Shown: piece by piece, positions 10,418 to 23,077 of the stretch
Layout of the letters: the number at the start of each line of letters is the position of its first letter
Numbering within the stretch: position 1 is the first letter of the stretch
Assembly: GCA_902536575.1 (NCBI GenBank)
Contig: CACAYA010000002.1
Location: 1 to 60,073 of the forward strand
Source: an uncultured Pelagibacteraceae bacterium
GTDB lineage: Bacteria; Pseudomonadota; Alphaproteobacteria; Pelagibacterales; Pelagibacteraceae
DNA length: 60,073 nt
Reading direction: 5' to 3'
Translations under genes and position numbers: made by a program
The notes under the pieces: model-generated
The model's database searches: none
Seen by the model: only the letters and a program-made list of their open reading frames with translations
What the model was told of the DNA's origin: nothing

Positions 10418-10672
10418 ATGCATTATTTTACATATATGCTAAAATCAGTTTCTCCTGGCATTAAAAAAACTTACGTTGGTTATACTAATAATATTAGAAA
10501 AAGATTATTAAAACACAATTCAAATGCTGGAGCAAAAACTACAAAAGGATATAAATGGGTAGTTATATATTTTAAAAAATTTAAAAATAAACATGAAGCA
10601 ATGTCATATGAATATAAACTTAAAAACAATAGATCTCTTAGAAAACAAATATTAAATAAATCAAAAGAATGA
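10418..10672 (+). CDS. GIY-YIG domain protein (UPF0213/YhbQ-like)
   Basis: An 84-residue stand-alone GIY-YIG nuclease domain. The GIY and YIG strands appear as YML near residue 6 and YVGYT near 19-23, followed by NNIRKRLLKHN, the GAKTTKGYKW segment and a conserved EYKLK helix. Relatives are small proteins of unclear role, some with DNA strand-cleavage activity. The start is 5 nt after the tRNA-Glu CCA end, and the stop overlaps the next glycosyltransferase start (ATGA). It may be an ordinary housekeeping gene or the left end of the accessory region. Confidence 0.85.
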   Translation: MHYFTYMLKSVSPGIKKTYVGYTNNIRKRLLKHNSNAGAKTTKGYKWVVIYFKKFKNKHEAMSYEYKLKNNRSLRKQILNKSKE

Positions 10673-12777
10673 AAATTTCAATTTTACTACCTTATAAAGA
10701 AAATTTTTCAAAAACATATGCTGGGGCAGTTTCTATTTCAATAAGAGATACAGTTAAAGAAAGTAAGTATAAAAAAAACATTTATATTTACGGAAATACA
10801 AATTTTAAAAACAAACTTTTAAAGAATTATATAAATATTAAATTTTCTACAAATTTTCTACAAAGTTCCTCAAAAAATTATATTTTAAGTTTTTTAGAAG
10901 AAGAAAGTAAAAATAGATCATCATTAATCGAAATGCATAATAGGCCATCATATGTTAAATTTTTATCAAATTTGAAGTATACAAAAAAAGTTCTTTATTT
11001 TCACAATGATCCACTTGAAATGAGTGGTTCAAGGACAATTGACGAAAGGCTATTTCTAATAAATAATTTAGATAAAATTATTTTCAATAGCAATTGGTCT
11101 AAAAGTAGATTTATTAACAATCTGAGTGTAAAAAATAAAATTTCCCCAAAATTAATTGTTATTAAACAGTCAATAAATAAACCGAAAATCAATTTAAAGA
11201 CAAAAAAAAAAATTATAACTTTTATTGGTAAACTTAATTCAGCAAAAGGTTATGATCTTTTTGGAAAAGCAATTTTAAAGATTTTAAATAAATATCCCGA
11301 ATGGAAATCTGTAGTTATTGGTGATGAACCAAGAGAAAAAATTTTTTTTAGACATAAGAGACTAAAAATTCTTGGCTTCCAAAGTCATGATAAAGTCTTA
11401 TCATATTTGAGAAGTGCATCTATATCAGTAACATGCTCAAGATGGAATGAGCCTTTTGGAAGATCTAGTTTGGAGGCTGCTAGTAGAGGCTGTGCTGTTA
11501 TAATTAGTAATAAAGGAGGTCTCCCTGAAACAATAACAGATGGTATTATTTTAAAGAAACTTAATGTAATTAATATTTTTAAAAGTATAGAAAAAGTAAT
11601 TTTAAATAAAAAATATAGAAAAAATTTACAGGAATTATCTTTAAAAAATTTTTTTTTAACAAATAAATTTGCAAGTAAAAAAATTGACCAATATAGAGAT
11701 TTAATTATCGGTTCACAAAATAATAATAATAAAAATAAACATTTAAAAATTTTGCACGTCACAAATCTAAATGAGAGACATAATGGAAGGCTTTTTTATA
11801 ATACTGGTAGAAGAATTAATAATGGTCTTATTAGGTTAAGCCATAATGTAATGACAATTAGTGATCGAGATATTGTCAGTAATAATAGAAAATTATCTGA
11901 TATAGACGGTTCAAAAACTTTAAATGAAATTTTTATTAAAACCGTGGATACTTTTAACCCAGATTTAATTATTTTAGGTCATGCTGATTTAATTAAAAAA
12001 AAATCTATTCAAGATATCAAGAAAAATAATCCAGAAATCAAAGTCTGTCAGTGGTTTCTTGATAGAATGGACTCTCAATGGATGATAAACAAAAAAAGAT
12101 TTTTAGAAAAAATTGATGCAATCGACGCAAGTTTTTGCACAACAGATCCAAATGTTCTTAATTTTAATAAGAAGAACAAAGTTTTTTATATACCTAATCC
12201 TGTTGATGCTTCTTTTGAAAATTTAAAAGTTTATGAAAATAAAAATCCTGAATATGACCTTTTTTTTGCAATGTCCCATGGCGTACACAGAGGTAGGTTG
12301 AAGAGGGGGAAATTTGATCAACGAGAAATATTTTTAAAAAAATTGATTAAAAATAATCCCAATAAAAAATATGATTTTTATGGTTTTGATAATACAGAAC
12401 CTTTATGGGGGGATGATTTTAAAAAGCAAATTTACAAATCGAAAATGGCACTCAATTTGAGCCAAGGAAAACCTTTAAAATATTATAGTAGTGATAGAAT
12501 TGCACAATTAATTGGAAATGGTTTATTAACTTTTATAGATGAAAAAACTAAATATAACGATTTTTTTTCTAAAGATGAAGTTGTATTTTATAAAAATCAA
12601 AATGATCTAAAAAAGAAAATAAATTTGATGCTAAAAAATGACAAATTAAGAGTATCCATGTCAAAAAAAGGTCGAAACAAATACCATAAATACTTTAATT
12701 CCGATCTTGTTGCAGAATATATAATTAATAAAACTTTTAATATTAAAAAAAAATATTACTGGGAAAAAAAAAATTAA
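10669..12777 (+). CDS. Two-domain glycosyltransferase (GT4 plus CgeB-like GT)
   Basis: A 702-residue protein made of two glycosyltransferase units. The N-terminal half (about 1-345) is a GT-B fold GT4-type enzyme: an FIGKLNSAKGYD segment near 185, a GFQSHDKVLSYL motif near 240, and EPFGRSSLEAASRG near 262, which holds the paired glutamates of the nucleotide-sugar site. The C-terminal half (about 358-700) begins anew with LKILHVTNLN and resembles CgeB/DUF3880-like transferases (LILGHAD, CQWFLDR, YIPNPVD, LNLSQG and YYSSDRIAQLIGNG). It overlaps genes on both sides. Probably cytoplasmic; it would build a surface polysaccharide or LPS. Sugar specificity cannot be read from sequence. Confidence 0.82.
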   Translation: MKISILLPYKENFSKTYAGAVSISIRDTVKESKYKKNIYIYGNTNFKNKLLKNYINIKFSTNFLQSSSKNYILSFLEEESKNRSSLIEMHNRPSYVKFLSNLKYTKKVLYFHNDPLEMSGSRTIDERLFLINNLDKIIFNSNWSKSRFINNLSVKNKISPKLIVIKQSINKPKINLKTKKKIITFIGKLNSAKGYDLFGKAILKILNKYPEWKSVVIGDEPREKIFFRHKRLKILGFQSHDKVLSYLRSASISVTCSRWNEPFGRSSLEAASRGCAVIISNKGGLPETITDGIILKKLNVINIFKSIEKVILNKKYRKNLQELSLKNFFLTNKFASKKIDQYRDLIIGSQNNNNKNKHLKILHVTNLNERHNGRLFYNTGRRINNGLIRLSHNVMTISDRDIVSNNRKLSDIDGSKTLNEIFIKTVDTFNPDLIILGHADLIKKKSIQDIKKNNPEIKVCQWFLDRMDSQWMINKKRFLEKIDAIDASFCTTDPNVLNFNKKNKVFYIPNPVDASFENLKVYENKNPEYDLFFAMSHGVHRGRLKRGKFDQREIFLKKLIKNNPNKKYDFYGFDNTEPLWGDDFKKQIYKSKMALNLSQGKPLKYYSSDRIAQLIGNGLLTFIDEKTKYNDFFSKDEVVFYKNQNDLKKKINLMLKNDKLRVSMSKKGRNKYHKYFNSDLVAEYIINKTFNIKKKYYWEKKN

Positions 12778-13664
12778 TGTTTTCAATTTTAATTCCCACA
12801 TTCAATAACCTAGAATATTTAAAATTATGCATATCAAGTCTAGAGAAAAACTCAAAATATTCCCATCAAATTGTACCCCATGTTAATATCGGAGATGATG
12901 GAACTCTAGAATATCTAAAAAAAAAAAATATAGAATATAGTTATACAAAATATAATTCAGGCATATGCGAAGGTATAAACAAAGCTTCTAAATTGAGTAA
13001 ATTTGATTATATTTTATATGCACATGATGATTTTTACTTTTGTCCTAACTGGGATGAAATTTTATTTAATGAGGTAAAAAATATTGGTCACAATAATTTC
13101 TACTTATCTGGTACCATGATGCACGCAGGTCAAATTTCATTTAATTGTGGTGACAACGCATCAAATTTCGATGAAAAAAAATTTTTAAATAATTATAAAA
13201 ATTTTAATTATTTTGATTTTCAAGGATCCACATGGGCACCGCATCTAATACATAAAGATTTATGGAAAAAGGTAGGTGGTTTAAGCGAGGAATACTTTCC
13301 TGGTACTGGTTCTGATCCAGATCTTAATATGAAGCTGTGGAGGGAAGGTGTAAGAATATTTAAAGGATTAAATAATTTTAAAGTATATCATTTTGGTTCT
13401 ATTGTGACAAGAAAGTATAAATATCACCCCTCCGTAACAACTGAGTCCGGAAGTAAAGGTGGAAAAATATTTTTATTAAAGTGGGGTATCTCAATTAAAT
13501 TCTTTAAAAAATTTTATCTTCAATCTAATATAAAATATGAGAGAGAACTTACACACCCTAAATATACTATAAATTTTTTATTAAATTACCTGGTTTGTAA
13601 ACTATCTTTTTTTTATTTAAAATTTTTTTATAGAAAAATTTCAATTAGAAGGGGTTCAACATAA
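12777..13664 (+). CDS. Glycosyltransferase family 2
   Basis: GT-A fold transferase, 295 residues. The N-terminus FSILIPTFNNLEYLK is the usual GT2 start. An AHDD sequence near residue 82 fills the place of the DXD metal/nucleotide-sugar motif, and GTGSDPDLNMKLW near 178 corresponds to the catalytic-base region. A hydrophobic, basic C-terminus (about 262-290) may anchor it to the membrane. It starts on the last base of the upstream transferase stop codon and precedes the 2OG oxygenase by 15 nt. Probably part of surface-glycan assembly. Confidence 0.85.
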   Translation: MFSILIPTFNNLEYLKLCISSLEKNSKYSHQIVPHVNIGDDGTLEYLKKKNIEYSYTKYNSGICEGINKASKLSKFDYILYAHDDFYFCPNWDEILFNEVKNIGHNNFYLSGTMMHAGQISFNCGDNASNFDEKKFLNNYKNFNYFDFQGSTWAPHLIHKDLWKKVGGLSEEYFPGTGSDPDLNMKLWREGVRIFKGLNNFKVYHFGSIVTRKYKYHPSVTTESGSKGGKIFLLKWGISIKFFKKFYLQSNIKYERELTHPKYTINFLLNYLVCKLSFFYLKFFYRKISIRRGST

Positions 13665-13679
13665 AAAATTTTTACTCTC

Positions 13680-14480
13680 ATGAATATAATAAATAAAAGG
13701 TATTATAATTTAGAGCAATTTTCAAAAAATTTTAAAGATGCTAAACCATATCCTCATATAGTATTAGACAACTTTTTAATTGATTCCTTTTTTAAAAATT
13801 TAAATTTAGAAAATTATAAATTAAGTCAAAACACTGGAAGATCCTTTAACACCAATCTAGAAAAGAATAAATGGACTAGTAAGAATGAAATTTTGTCTAA
13901 AAATCTAAAATTAATTATTGATGAGCTAAATAAAAAAGATTTTTTGGAAAACTTATACAAGTTAACAGGTATTACTGATCTGTTTTCAACAACCGAAGGC
14001 AATACATCTTTGGCAAATTACCATGAAATGTATGAATCTGGTTTTTTAGGCACGCATGTGGATCATTCATCAGAACCAATTACTGGCTTACCTCATGTTT
14101 TAAATATAATTCTCTATTTATCCAAAGACTGGAAAAGTTTGTGGGGAGGGTCGACTATACTTGCTGATAAAAATGGTCGTAAAATTGAAAAATTAATAGA
14201 TTTTGTTCCTAACCGCGCAGTAATTTTTTTACATACTCCATTCTCGTTTCATGGGGTTACTGAAATTAAAAAAAGTCCAATAAAAAGATCAACTATATAT
14301 GTTGATTATTACTCTAAAAATAAAGATCCATATAATCATTTCAATCTACTATTTAAAAAAGTATGGTTCAAACACCCTACAACATTTATACTTCCTAATT
14401 TAAAAGATTATTTTCAAATAAAAAATCAAAGTTATTTAAAAAAAATGATTAAACATAAGGTTAAAGCCTTTTTTTCTTAA
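13680..14480 (+). CDS. 2OG-Fe(II) oxygenase (prolyl 4-hydroxylase-like)
   Basis: A 266-residue non-heme iron dioxygenase of the 2-oxoglutarate family. The iron triad is visible as H126-x-D128 (THVDHS) and H191 (FHGV), with R203 (KRSTIYVDYY) as the likely 2-oxoglutarate carboxylate ligand. A WGGSTIL segment near 155 fits the double-stranded beta-helix of P4H-type enzymes. It lies between glycosyltransferases, so a sugar, lipid or glycopeptide substrate is plausible, but the substrate is unknown. Its end is 20 nt from the convergent GT2 gene, leaving no room for a separate terminator. Confidence 0.82.
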   Translation: MNIINKRYYNLEQFSKNFKDAKPYPHIVLDNFLIDSFFKNLNLENYKLSQNTGRSFNTNLEKNKWTSKNEILSKNLKLIIDELNKKDFLENLYKLTGITDLFSTTEGNTSLANYHEMYESGFLGTHVDHSSEPITGLPHVLNIILYLSKDWKSLWGGSTILADKNGRKIEKLIDFVPNRAVIFLHTPFSFHGVTEIKKSPIKRSTIYVDYYSKNKDPYNHFNLLFKKVWFKHPTTFILPNLKDYFQIKNQSYLKKMIKHKVKAFFS

Positions 14481-14500
14481 CTATACTTTATCGAGTAACA

Positions 14501-15355
14501 TTATAAATTAAAGTTTTTATCGTATTTTGATCTTTTGTACGAGCTATAACCAAAAATTGATACTACTAATCCTTCTATTTTGAAATATAGATATTTTGTT
14601 TTTTTAGGATTTATTAATAAATTTAAAATCATTTGAAAAAAATTCATTATTAAACTAGGTAAACATTTTTTTAAACTAGCAAAATATCCTAAATATTTTT
14701 TATAGTAATAAAATTTCGACCATTGTCCATGCCATCCAGATAAATAATATGCGTAATCTTTCTCATCTTTATTTTTAAATATCGCTGAACCACTACCTCT
14801 CTTTTTATGGAAATGATATGAATTTGAAATTAAAAATAATTTATACTTTTTTAATCTGCACTTAGTAAAATAATCATTATCCTCATAATATAGAAATATA
14901 TTTTTATCAAAACCATTTAGTTTCTTAAATATTTTAGTATTAAATAGCATTGCACCACCTGTCAATGTTTCTTGTTCGACTATAATTTTTTTTTTATAAG
15001 TTTTTTTATTACCCTTAAGATTAGGACTTACTGCACCGAATTTTTTTATTCTTTTACAACTATTTAATAATAATGTTATTGTGTTCTTATATATTTTTGT
15101 ATCTGGATTGATGACAAAAAAATATTTAGTTTTTATGAGTTTTGAGGCATGATTAATTGCATTACCATATCCAATATTGTTTCTTAATATAACTTTCACG
15201 TTTTTATTTTTTTTTTCTAATTTATCTTTAAGTTTTTTGTCTTGGGAATTTTCAACAATAATAATTTTTGTTTTTTTTGAAATATTTTTAACATGCCTAA
15301 TAATTCTTTTTTTTGAATTGTAAGACGGAATAACGACAGTAACAGATCTTGTCAT
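14501..15355 (-). CDS. Glycosyltransferase family 2 (rhamnosyltransferase-like)
   Basis: GT-A fold transferase, 284 residues. The N-terminus VTVVIPSYNS is the GT2 nucleotide-binding start; NPDT near residue 90 matches the DXD position, a GGAMLF segment near 140 and LYYEDNDYF near 162 resemble rhamnosyl- or galactofuranosyltransferase-type GT2 enzymes. The C-terminal third is basic and aromatic with a hydrophobic stretch near 240. Its ATG is immediately next to the stop of the tyrosine recombinase, with no spacing, so the two are very probably co-transcribed, an odd pairing. Confidence 0.84.
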   Translation of the reverse strand: MTRSVTVVIPSYNSKKRIIRHVKNISKKTKIIIVENSQDKKLKDKLEKKNKNVKVILRNNIGYGNAINHASKLIKTKYFFVINPDTKIYKNTITLLLNSCKRIKKFGAVSPNLKGNKKTYKKKIIVEQETLTGGAMLFNTKIFKKLNGFDKNIFLYYEDNDYFTKCRLKKYKLFLISNSYHFHKKRGSGSAIFKNKDEKDYAYYLSGWHGQWSKFYYYKKYLGYFASLKKCLPSLIMNFFQMILNLLINPKKTKYLYFKIEGLVVSIFGYSSYKRSKYDKNFNL

Positions 15356-16309
15356 TTAAATTTTGATTTTATTAAGTGGATTATTTTTAAATAAATTTGC
15401 TTCTTTAATATATCTTCTTACCATTTCTGTTGTTTTATGGCCTGTCATTGCCATAATACTTCTTTCATCAGCCCCAGACTCAGCAGCTACTGTTGCAAAA
15501 CCTGACCTTAAACTATGACCTGCAAAATTTTTGTTTTCGATTCCTGCTAACTTTAAATACTCTTTCATTAATAAAACTACAGATTGGTCAGTTAATCTTT
15601 TGTCTGTTAATGATAAACCTTTAGAAAATCTTCTAAAAATAGGTCCAGACTTAATTTTAGAAATTTCTAACCATTTTTTTAGATTTGTAACAGGACAGTA
15701 AATTTCATTATCGAAGTAGGGTAGTCCTTTAGTCATTCCTTCTCCGAATTGATCAGTTTTTGATCTTTTAATAATGATTTTTAAACCTTCAGGAACAAAT
15801 TCTAAATCTTCATGATCAATTGAAATCAGTTCGGTTCTTCTAAAGCCTCCACCAAAGCCAATTAAGATTAATGATTTATCTCTAAGTTTTTTTATTTCCT
15901 CAGTTTTTTGTTCATTTATTACATTAATAATTAATTTTAAATGATTGATTAATATAGGTTTTTTACCTTTCTGAATGCTACCTTTAACTCTTCTTATTCC
16001 CATTAAATTTTCAACTATGATTGGATGTTTAGTGTCTAGATAATGCCCTTTCAACTTATGAACCATGCTTATTGATACTAATCTTCGTCTTAAAGTGCTT
16101 ATTTTTGAGTTTTTAGAGAGATGGGTAAGGTACAATGAAACTATTTTCGGCTCTGTTGGTAATGAATTTAATCCATGTTTTGCACAAAAAGCTCCAAAGT
16201 CTTTAAAGTCCGACTTATAAGCTCTTAACGTATTATTTGCCTTTGAGCTTTTAAGATTATTTAAAGTTGCCTCATGAAGTGATTTTAGGTCTGTTGTCAG
16301 TTCATTCAT
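15356..16309 (-). CDS. Tyrosine recombinase / site-specific integrase
   Basis: A 317-residue tyrosine recombinase. An N-terminal SAM-like core-binding domain (about 5-105, with NNTLRAYKSDFKDF) precedes the catalytic domain. All active-site residues are present: Arg (about 157/158, FRRTEL), Lys 184 (SKTDQ), H265-x-x-R268 (HSLR), H291 (GHKT) and the nucleophile Tyr 300 (RRYI), so the enzyme looks functional. A good promoter and an inverted repeat lie directly upstream. It probably integrates or rearranges the surrounding glycan island. It is more like mobile-element integrases than XerC/XerD; no excisionase or phage genes are nearby. Confidence 0.92.
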   Translation of the reverse strand: MNELTTDLKSLHEATLNNLKSSKANNTLRAYKSDFKDFGAFCAKHGLNSLPTEPKIVSLYLTHLSKNSKISTLRRRLVSISMVHKLKGHYLDTKHPIIVENLMGIRRVKGSIQKGKKPILINHLKLIINVINEQKTEEIKKLRDKSLILIGFGGGFRRTELISIDHEDLEFVPEGLKIIIKRSKTDQFGEGMTKGLPYFDNEIYCPVTNLKKWLEISKIKSGPIFRRFSKGLSLTDKRLTDQSVVLLMKEYLKLAGIENKNFAGHSLRSGFATVAAESGADERSIMAMTGHKTTEMVRRYIKEANLFKNNPLNKIKI

Positions 16310-16390: not shown

Positions 16391-16567
16391 ATGGCTTCAA
16401 TGAACGGATTAATAGAACCTAATTATTTTCTTATTACAGCTATAGCTTTTGCAATTCTAAGCATTATTCAATATAAGAAAGCTGGAAAAACTATTGAGAC
16501 AATATATTTGTCAATTCTATTTATATTTTTTCTAATAAGCTATTTTATACTTGTGTTTGGTGATTAG
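16391..16567 (+). CDS. Small two-helix membrane protein, unknown function
   Basis: A 58-codon reading frame from ATG to TAG. It encodes two hydrophobic segments (about residues 11-26 and 39-56) separated by a short basic hinge (QYKKAGKT), the layout of a small hairpin membrane protein. I do not recognise the family. It is divergent from the recombinase with about 80 nt between them and precedes the GC-rich element. Its composition and clear two-helix pattern favour a real gene over chance, but it is short and has no obvious Shine-Dalgarno sequence. Confidence 0.5.
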   Translation: MASMNGLIEPNYFLITAIAFAILSIIQYKKAGKTIETIYLSILFIFFLISYFILVFGD

Positions 16568-16661
16568 AATTATCCCCATCATTCACAGGTCATAATCAAA
16601 AAATAAAAAAACAACTAAAAAGTGATACAAATAGATAATATAGCTGATATATTACAATTAA

Positions 16662-16792
16662 TTAAGGGGCAACCCTTAACTGGCCAGCTGGAGAAAAACC
16701 GCAAGGAACAATTTCAGAGGGCAGAAAGTTTCGCGGGGGATCGCTGAACGCGCGAAGCGGGTGGCATGGCGATAGCGAGTCAACGACGTGCC
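16662..16792 (+). ncRNA. GC-rich structured element, candidate non-coding RNA (unassigned)
   Basis: About 127 nt (16666-16792) with roughly 59% G+C by hand count, in a surrounding near 25-30%. It opens with a perfect 7-bp hairpin, TTAAGGG-GCAA-CCCTTAA (16662-16679), closed by a GNRA tetraloop. A second small CC-GCAA-GG hairpin follows near 16699-16706, then CGCT/AGCG and CGCG/CGCG pairings (16732-16760) and a GGCA/TGCC closure (16763-16792). The high G+C and hairpins point to selection on RNA structure. I see no T-loop, SRP, RNase P, tmRNA or known riboswitch signature. Strand is taken as + because the following hairpin and gene read that way, and this is not certain. Confidence 0.5.
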
Positions 16793-16803
16793 TATAACTA
16801 CAG

Positions 16804-16829
16804 TTTTATGCACTAAAAAGTGCATAAAA
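16804..16829. terminator. Perfect 10-bp hairpin after the GC-rich element
   Basis: TTTTATGCAC, loop TAAAAA, GTGCATAAAA. A T6 run starts 7 nt after the stem (16836-16841), so it could end transcription of the GC-rich element on the + strand. A second weak hairpin (TGGTG 16830-16834 with CACCA 16844-16848) covers the region just before the MGMT start codon. It might instead be an RNA 3' stabilising stem or a leader structure of the next gene. Confidence 0.45.
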
Positions 16830-16851
16830 TGGTGGTTTTTTCTCACCAAAT

Positions 16852-17121
16852 ATGAATGGAACTAAATTTCAACTAAAAGTTTGGAAATATCTTAAAACTA
16901 TACCAAGAGGTACTGTTAAAAACTACAAACAGGTAGCGATTGCAATAAAAAGACCTAAATCAGCCCGAGCTGTAGCTAATGCATGTGGAAAAAACCCTTA
17001 TGCACCAAAAATACCTTGTCATAGAGTAATTCGGTCCGATGGAGGCCTTGGTGGATACTCAGGCAGAGGTGGAATTAAGACAAAGCTGCGTTTATTGAGA
17101 TCTGAAAAAGTTGATATTTAG
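16852..17121 (+). CDS. Methylated-DNA--protein-cysteine methyltransferase, DNA-binding domain only
   Basis: An 89-residue suicide alkyltransferase-type protein that would remove O6-alkyl groups from guanine. The winged-helix domain is complete: VWKYLKTIPRG near residue 10, the RAVANACGKNP arginine-finger region near 39, and the active-site PCHRV with its cysteine near residue 61, then GGYSGR. The N-terminal RNase H-like domain of Ogt/Ada enzymes is missing. Keeping the cysteine separates it from the alkyltransferase-like (ATL) proteins, which have Trp or Ala there. There is no clear Shine-Dalgarno; hairpins lie right upstream. Confidence 0.85.
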   Translation: MNGTKFQLKVWKYLKTIPRGTVKNYKQVAIAIKRPKSARAVANACGKNPYAPKIPCHRVIRSDGGLGGYSGRGGIKTKLRLLRSEKVDI

Positions 17122-22998: not shown

Positions 22999-23012
22999 TT
23001 TTCTTAAATTAT

Positions 23013-23072
23013 CGGTAGGCATTTGAACTATATTGTGCGCCTTACATTAAGTTAAAGCACTAAAAAAGGAGT
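23013..23072 (+). promoter_or_regulatory. SAM-V riboswitch covering the metY ribosome-binding site
   Basis: GTAGGC pairs with GCCTTAC to form P1, GTGC (23035-23038) pairs with GCAC (23057-23060) as the pseudoknot, and the conserved ATTTGAAC loop and A-run with AAGGAG follow. The Shine-Dalgarno AAGGAG (23066-23071) is inside the aptamer, 6 nt before the metY ATG, so SAM binding should block translation. It is directly behind the SAM-II element, the tandem arrangement described for marine SAR11 bacteria. Confidence 0.88.
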
Positions 23073-23077
23073 ATATT

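Follow-up and report, generated by a model that had tools for sequence, protein, structure and literature searches.

Results

The locus and its RNA

The window analysed here is a stretch of 60,073 nucleotides from an uncultured Pelagibacteraceae bacterium with a mean G+C content of 28.2%. Its most GC-rich 127-nt stretch begins at position 16666 and reaches 59.1% G+C, the next separate peak being 48.8%. This agrees with the original prediction, which had been made from the sequence letters and had described a GC-rich element of about 127 nt. The hairpins listed there are also found to the letter: TTAAGGG-GCAA-CCCTTAA at 16662–16679, CC-GCAA-GG at 16699–16706, and a 10-bp hairpin whose arms, 16804–16813 and 16820–16829, are exact reverse complements. 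The two neighbouring genes were likewise confirmed by Pfam search. On the minus strand lies a tyrosine recombinase of 317 aa (15356–16309; PF00589, E 2.2e-19), and on the plus strand, outside the RNA gene, an MGMT-type protein of 89 aa with the Ada/Atl C-terminal domain (16852–17121; PF01035, E 8.7e-32). A membrane-protein-like open reading frame of 58 aa, to which no Pfam family matched, precedes the RNA on the plus strand (16391–16567). Adjoining the recombinase, a run of glycosyltransferase-like and related open reading frames (10669–15355), which differs between relatives, looks by eye like a variable surface-polysaccharide region, and a SAM-V riboswitch (84 bits) is found at 23008–23074 on the plus strand.

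A cmscan search against Rfam identified positions 16655–16794 of the plus strand as the core of IMES-2 (RF02035, Rfam type 'Gene') with 124.3 bits and an E value of 1.4e-31, far above the curated cut-off of 54.7 bits and covering model positions 1–141 of 141. IMES-2 is the sole Rfam family above its own cut-off at these positions, and our own covariance model R1 detects it as well. The window RNA thus fits the family over its full length, with a score above the cut-off and with the same four hairpins. The statement that the element matches no known RNA motif was wrong, since Rfam names the stretch IMES-2; the RNA is indeed structured, as the full-length match and the covariation described below demonstrate, yet it is not new.

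IMES-2 was reportedly first described by Weinberg and colleagues in Nature in 2009, and IMES-1, a marine environmental RNA, was named in the same series. IMES-1 (RF02034) was above its cut-off in none of 48 genomes, the one weak match having 27.4 bits where 81 are required. In the literature searched we found no functional study of IMES-2, which is there a name without a function. The word IMES is absent from the main text of a survey of GC-rich intergenic regions in P. ubique (PMC2704228) and of a survey that includes HIMB5 (PMC6429828), and IMES-2 is not named in the accessible parts, SAR11 section included, of a Red Sea study of transcript starts (PMC5069720). The available portion of a report on a giant squid assembly mentions IMES-2 as a probable contaminant.

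Distribution of IMES-2

Among 197 genomes sampled from the window's family, 134 carry IMES-2, with one match each and in 12 of 14 genera. When the sample was drawn from the order, 140 of 297 genomes carried the RNA and every carrier belonged to the same family. A pattern search gave at least 120 matches on genome contigs, and all 80 that were listed are titled Pelagibacteraceae, Pelagibacter or Pelagibacterales. The class-wide search of 385 genomes with R1, which at that number uses stricter filters and can lose weak matches, yielded three clear matches, all in the window's own family; a fourth match with an E value of 0.095 was treated as noise.

Within the genus of the window, 29 genomes, counting that of the window, carry IMES-2 and at least 20 lack it. 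As the latter are all 94% or more complete, IMES-2 is dispensable in these genomes. Searching 20 genomes lacking IMES-2 with R1 for a diverged copy gave nothing better than an E value of 0.045, while four carriers added to the same search were all detected. IMES-1 was considered as a substitute in the genomes without IMES-2 and rejected, none being above cut-off.

Secondary structure and covariation

The core folds into four hairpins on the plus strand. P1 (16662–16679) has seven pairs and a GCAA loop, and in 52 relatives 100% of its cells are paired. P2 (16680–16724) contains a 4x4 internal loop and a GNRA tetraloop. P3 (16728–16758) and P4 (16763–16792) hold UCGCU (16741–16745) and AGCGA (16774–16778), respectively, in their loops; P2, P3 and P4 follow from the Rfam alignment and covariation. 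For the covariation analysis 190 full-length sequences were reduced to 55 below 93% identity and then to 52, as three cut or chimeric rows (L045, L044 and L121) were excluded from the structure and terminator counts. In these 52 relatives 94.3% of cells pair, compared to 79.7% in shuffles. Compensatory base changes, which had been asked for as a check on the structured RNA, are present: of 44 pairs, six of which belong to the loop contact described below, 33 are changed on both sides (21.9 in shuffles), as are 370 cells (104 in shuffles). RNAalifold alone predicted 35 pairs, and double-sided changes are seen in 28 of these. As evidence the fold energy is weak, since the core is only moderately more stable than its shuffles (z −1.9; 8 of 200 equally good). 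Covariation is strong evidence for the four-hairpin fold, which is the fold expected of an IMES-2 member.

The copy in the window is a somewhat divergent one. It departs from the consensus at 8 of 67 near-invariant columns, where the median of 52 rows is 0 and more departures are seen only in the four rows from the distant genera g7 and g9. The apical stem of its P2 has two A–A mismatches, its score of 124.3 bits compares with 135–166 for nearly all full-length copies of the genus (one other has 124.7), and in its tree no end branch but this one is flagged as long. Together with the patchy presence of IMES-2 in the genus, these features raise the possibility that the RNA, functional in the family at large, is under relaxed selection in this lineage, so that the window copy may be drifting towards loss. 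We regard such decay, which would be compatible with the explanation preferred below, as rather unlikely: P1, P3 and P4, the promoter blocks and the terminator-like stem are all kept, as is the contact between the loops, where the window has a U–A pair at a place at which three relatives have U–C.

The loops of P3 and P4

P3 and P4 have loops that are alike in sequence, and the covariation of these loops shows that they pair with each other (16741–16745 with 16774–16778, five pairs in the window copy, plus strand; whole element 16741–16778). In the 52 relatives the five inner pairs are formed in 98.1% of cells, compared to 90.2% in shuffles, and 24 cells have double-sided changes where shuffles have 5.1, none of 500 shuffles reaching 24. 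Two other measures do not stand out: 114 of 500 shuffles have as many contact pairs with double-sided changes (three), and 431 of 500 have as many further pair types (five). The outermost of the six contact pairs was left out of the five-pair test, as it is formed in 0 of 38 cells with 14 gaps in the alignment as made; when all six pairs are counted 85.5% of cells are paired. Loop 3 has six different central dinucleotides with at least eight changes on a tree built without these columns, and loop 4 follows every time. All 52 relatives keep at least four contiguous pairs. Loop 3 lacks full self-complementarity in 11 rows; with loop 4 it forms six pairs in seven of them, five in the window and four in the three others. 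For this reason selection looks to act on loop 3 together with loop 4 and not on loop 3 with itself.

The contact may lie within one molecule or between two molecules, as the covariation fits either arrangement. Kissing loops with covariation are common to IMES-2 and the bacterial RNAs GOLLD, ROOL and OLE, which are far larger than IMES-2 and form homo-oligomers. As described in the available part of the respective report, the loops of these RNAs are supported by covariation, and a contact of GOLLD that was found by covariation proved to be intermolecular (PMC12286853). The structure line of RF02035 as returned, to which our comparison with Rfam is limited, includes neither the P3–P4 contact nor the promoter blocks and the terminator.

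The 3′ end

Directly downstream of the core lies a terminator-like element (16796–16841, plus strand), recognised by folding and in relatives, with a stem at 16796–16837 and a T run at 16836–16841. The 10-bp hairpin at 16804–16829 is the core of this longer stem. The segment 16794–16840 folds with −20.5 kcal/mol (z −6.8; none of 200 shuffles folds as well), and a run of six T directly follows the stem in the window. A stem ended by a T-rich tract is found just 3′ of the core in 49 of 52 relatives versus 15 of 520 shuffled segments (all but L041, L056 and L143), by a test that is lenient about the T tract, as several rows (among them L021, L053, L128 and L140) have few T after the stem. Folding replaced an earlier bulge-free scan, which had caught 19 of 52. 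A terminator-like end with a U tract, as is found in Hfq-dependent small RNAs, is thus present by this lenient test and with six T in the window.

Upstream blocks and predicted promoter

Two conserved blocks precede the RNA on the plus strand. Block A (TTATCCCCATCATTCACAGG, 16570–16589) is a predicted protein-binding site which resembles two DnaA boxes in a row. The DnaA box consensus is TTATNCACA. Of 54 upstream regions 17 contain this sequence without a mismatch; the window itself has TTATCCCCA, which deviates from the consensus. Block B (ACAACTAAAAAGTGATAC, 16611–16628) forms an imperfect dyad that spans the predicted −35 element (GTGATA, 16622–16627). The predicted −10 region (16643–16653), whose position is taken from relatives only, is weak in the window copy and TATGAT- or TCTGAT-like in many relatives.

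Row L045 was excluded from the promoter counts. Block A scores at least 14 of 16 in 41 of 54 upstream regions versus 2 of 2700 shuffles, and block B at least 14 of 18 in 45 of 54 versus 0.5% of 2700 shuffles; this comparison is flattered, as the blocks were spotted by eye and scored with a consensus from the same sequences. A more independent check is given by scans of whole genomes. Allowing one mismatch, block A has eight matches in 22 genomes, six of them just upstream of IMES-2 (6 of 17 carriers searched). An exact search for block B gave 20 matches in 48 genomes, of which 16 are just upstream of IMES-2 (16 of 32 carriers). Reversed controls gave three matches for block A and four for block B. 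From these scans and controls it follows that both blocks are nearly private to IMES-2. A shared regulon of block A or B was rejected, as the other two and four matches are at the level of the reversed controls.

The blocks recur across the genera sampled, including loci with differing neighbours, and are weaker in some rows. The spacing between the two blocks is 22–24 bp in 16, 30–34 bp in 37 and 20 bp in one of the 54 regions. The two spacing groups are about one helical turn apart, and the 10-bp step may go back to one or a few inherited insertions or deletions. We also considered a link to the replication origin. IMES-2 lies near the plus-to-minus skew switch in G043 and the picture in G009 is unclear, with 20 stretches sampled per genome, about a third of each; the link was dropped as not consistent.

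Gene neighbourhood and the ~290-bp cassette

The neighbourhood of the RNA was surveyed in 41 loci using open frames of 60 aa or more. The recombinase and MGMT flank IMES-2 in nine of them, all from the window's genus, and within this set of loci it is only in this genus that a tyrosine recombinase stands beside the RNA. Upstream, a PF03054 gene, which we take to be mnmA, is found in 22 loci and SelO in three; six loci have an SNase-like gene upstream together with SRAP downstream, and one locus is cut by the contig end. The next downstream gene is on the opposite strand in 27 of the 41 loci, so that the RNA cannot be the leader of that gene. As the neighbours differ from genus to genus and often point the other way, a stand-alone gene is predicted which is neither an MGMT leader nor a part of the recombinase.

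In the window's genus itself a cis-acting leader of MGMT, that is, a riboswitch or attenuator, might be considered, as in nine loci MGMT is the next gene on the same strand with a terminator-like stem in between. The longest MGMT frame starts 13–59 nt downstream in eight of these loci and overlaps by 7 nt in one. Against this, no same-strand downstream gene is conserved over the loci, the opposite orientation prevails in the 27 loci mentioned, and relatives without the RNA retain MGMT. As a general function the leader is refuted, and we give this reading next to no credence.

Where IMES-2 is missing, the site can be compared directly. A search of 22 genomes detected MGMT in 20, among them two carriers of IMES-2. 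Thirteen of the 18 RNA-less MGMT loci were inspected in detail, taking the stop of the small open reading frame relative to the MGMT start: seven have a one-base overlap and four a gap of 6 nt, and in the remaining two the script detected no small open reading frame before MGMT. In RNA-bearing loci the gap is 284–293 nt in seven of 11 inspected, the other four not being resolved by the script. Between the same two genes, 11 of the 18 RNA-less loci thus lack the whole cassette including the promoter blocks; other RNA-less loci have differing upstream sequence. In the window's genus a cassette of ~290 bp is therefore present or absent at one site.

In seven RNA-less loci (L072–L075 and L077–L079) a membrane-like open reading frame of 56–62 aa ends overlapping the MGMT start (TGATG or TAATG), a possible sign of translational coupling between the two genes.

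Presence or absence of the cassette as one piece between related genomes and the adjacent recombinase in the window's genus might suggest an RNA of a mobile element tied to the tyrosine recombinase, as had been proposed originally. Furthermore, on a tree of the recombinase (89 rows with and 11 without the RNA) presence is scattered and not clustered, with 10 changes against a shuffled mean of 10.6; the well-supported branches force only three changes, and the recombinase gene may itself recombine. Nevertheless, the proposal was not supported. The recombinase is adjacent in nine of 41 loci and is retained in 11 loci without the RNA, and in other genera the RNA has unrelated neighbours. Neither a constant association with a mobility gene nor several copies per genome were found, all 134 carriers having a single match. 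There is no match in 50,697 phage records, a pattern scan of a viral collection yielded one doubtful viral contig, and no end repeats or target duplications were evident in an unsystematic look by eye. A mobile-element RNA is accordingly very improbable.

Two unusual junctions were seen. In the viral contig (L212, IMG/VR, 2149 bp), which is phage-like with T4-like genes by eye, IMES-2 P2–P4 are joined inside a dam-like open reading frame at about 2049–2149; this is probably a chimeric assembly. In one genome record (L121, about 270–370) IMES-2 breaks off within P3 and the sequence passes into the recombinase gene, the likely cause being a chimera of amplification or assembly.

Discussion

The IMES-2 copy described here appears to be a stand-alone, trans-acting gene with its own promoter and terminator, and its predicted product is a folded RNA that is bound by protein. 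We would give this explanation an even chance. Judged from the upstream and downstream elements, IMES-2 would be transcribed from its own promoter, and transcription would be stopped by its own terminator. An activator at block A, perhaps DnaA, may switch on the weak −35/−10 promoter. The RNA, with P3 and P4 side by side and held by the loop contact, would then act in trans as a compact scaffold for a cellular protein, which it would bind and either control or stabilise. The GAAA linker, the internal loop of P2 and the flanks of the loops are candidate binding places for the protein or another partner.

A base-pairing RNA that acts on mRNAs without Hfq is a less probable reading, though not a negligible one. 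The terminator-like end and the regulated-looking promoter are typical of such RNAs, and as the loops of P3 and P4 are mutually complementary, their opening would free a seed. On the other hand, no long conserved unpaired stretch that could serve as a free seed is found on reading the alignment of the relatives. In addition, the variable loop bases covary, with at least four contiguous pairs kept in 52 of 52 relatives, and are thus tied up inside the RNA. Hfq, the chaperone for which we searched (PF17209), was found in none of 48 genomes of the window's family, so that the host requirement of Hfq-dependent small RNAs is lacking there; the same search was positive in five of 14 known genomes. 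Most of the conserved unpaired bases sit in loops or linkers of the fold, again by reading of the alignment. For these reasons, the missing free seed and the conserved linker and loop bases, we consider the protein-bound scaffold to be likelier than the pairing RNA.

6S RNA is likewise a stand-alone bacterial RNA gene of similar size, and IMES-2 could stand in for it by binding RNA polymerase. RF00013 found nothing in the window's genome (68.8% complete) nor in any of 15 other genomes, while the same search was positive in five of 14 control genomes, Caulobacter included (four over cut-off). The shape of 6S RNA is one long hairpin with a central bubble, and IMES-2 with its four hairpins has an unlike architecture; the window RNA does not match RF00013. 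Moreover, eight of the 15 genomes have neither IMES-2 nor a recognisable 6S RNA, so that IMES-2 is no obligatory substitute. The model may also miss a 6S RNA that has diverged. We therefore hold such a substitution to be improbable. That neither Hfq nor a recognisable 6S RNA turned up in the genomes examined speaks against two common mechanisms, and the protein-bound scaffold remains the explanation that we prefer.

A more far-reaching version of the scaffold is conceivable and, in our opinion, quite unlikely: IMES-2 would be a global regulator found only in SAR11, with a private promoter activated by a factor linked to replication or growth (DnaA) and a compact RNA built by pairing of its two similar loops within or between molecules, perhaps as a dimer, whose ready-made ~290-bp cassette is dropped or regained in Pelagibacter.

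IMES-2 is now provided with a host family and with a gene anatomy of promoter blocks, loop contact and terminator. Pairs of close isolates with and without the RNA occur naturally, and their comparison makes the role of IMES-2 testable. Furthermore, as neither Hfq nor a recognisable 6S RNA was found in the genomes examined, fewer modes of action are left for IMES-2. In the ocean, SAR11 bacteria rank among the most numerous cells. If the far-reaching version were true, IMES-2 would be a global RNA regulator in bacteria without Hfq and without a recognisable 6S RNA.
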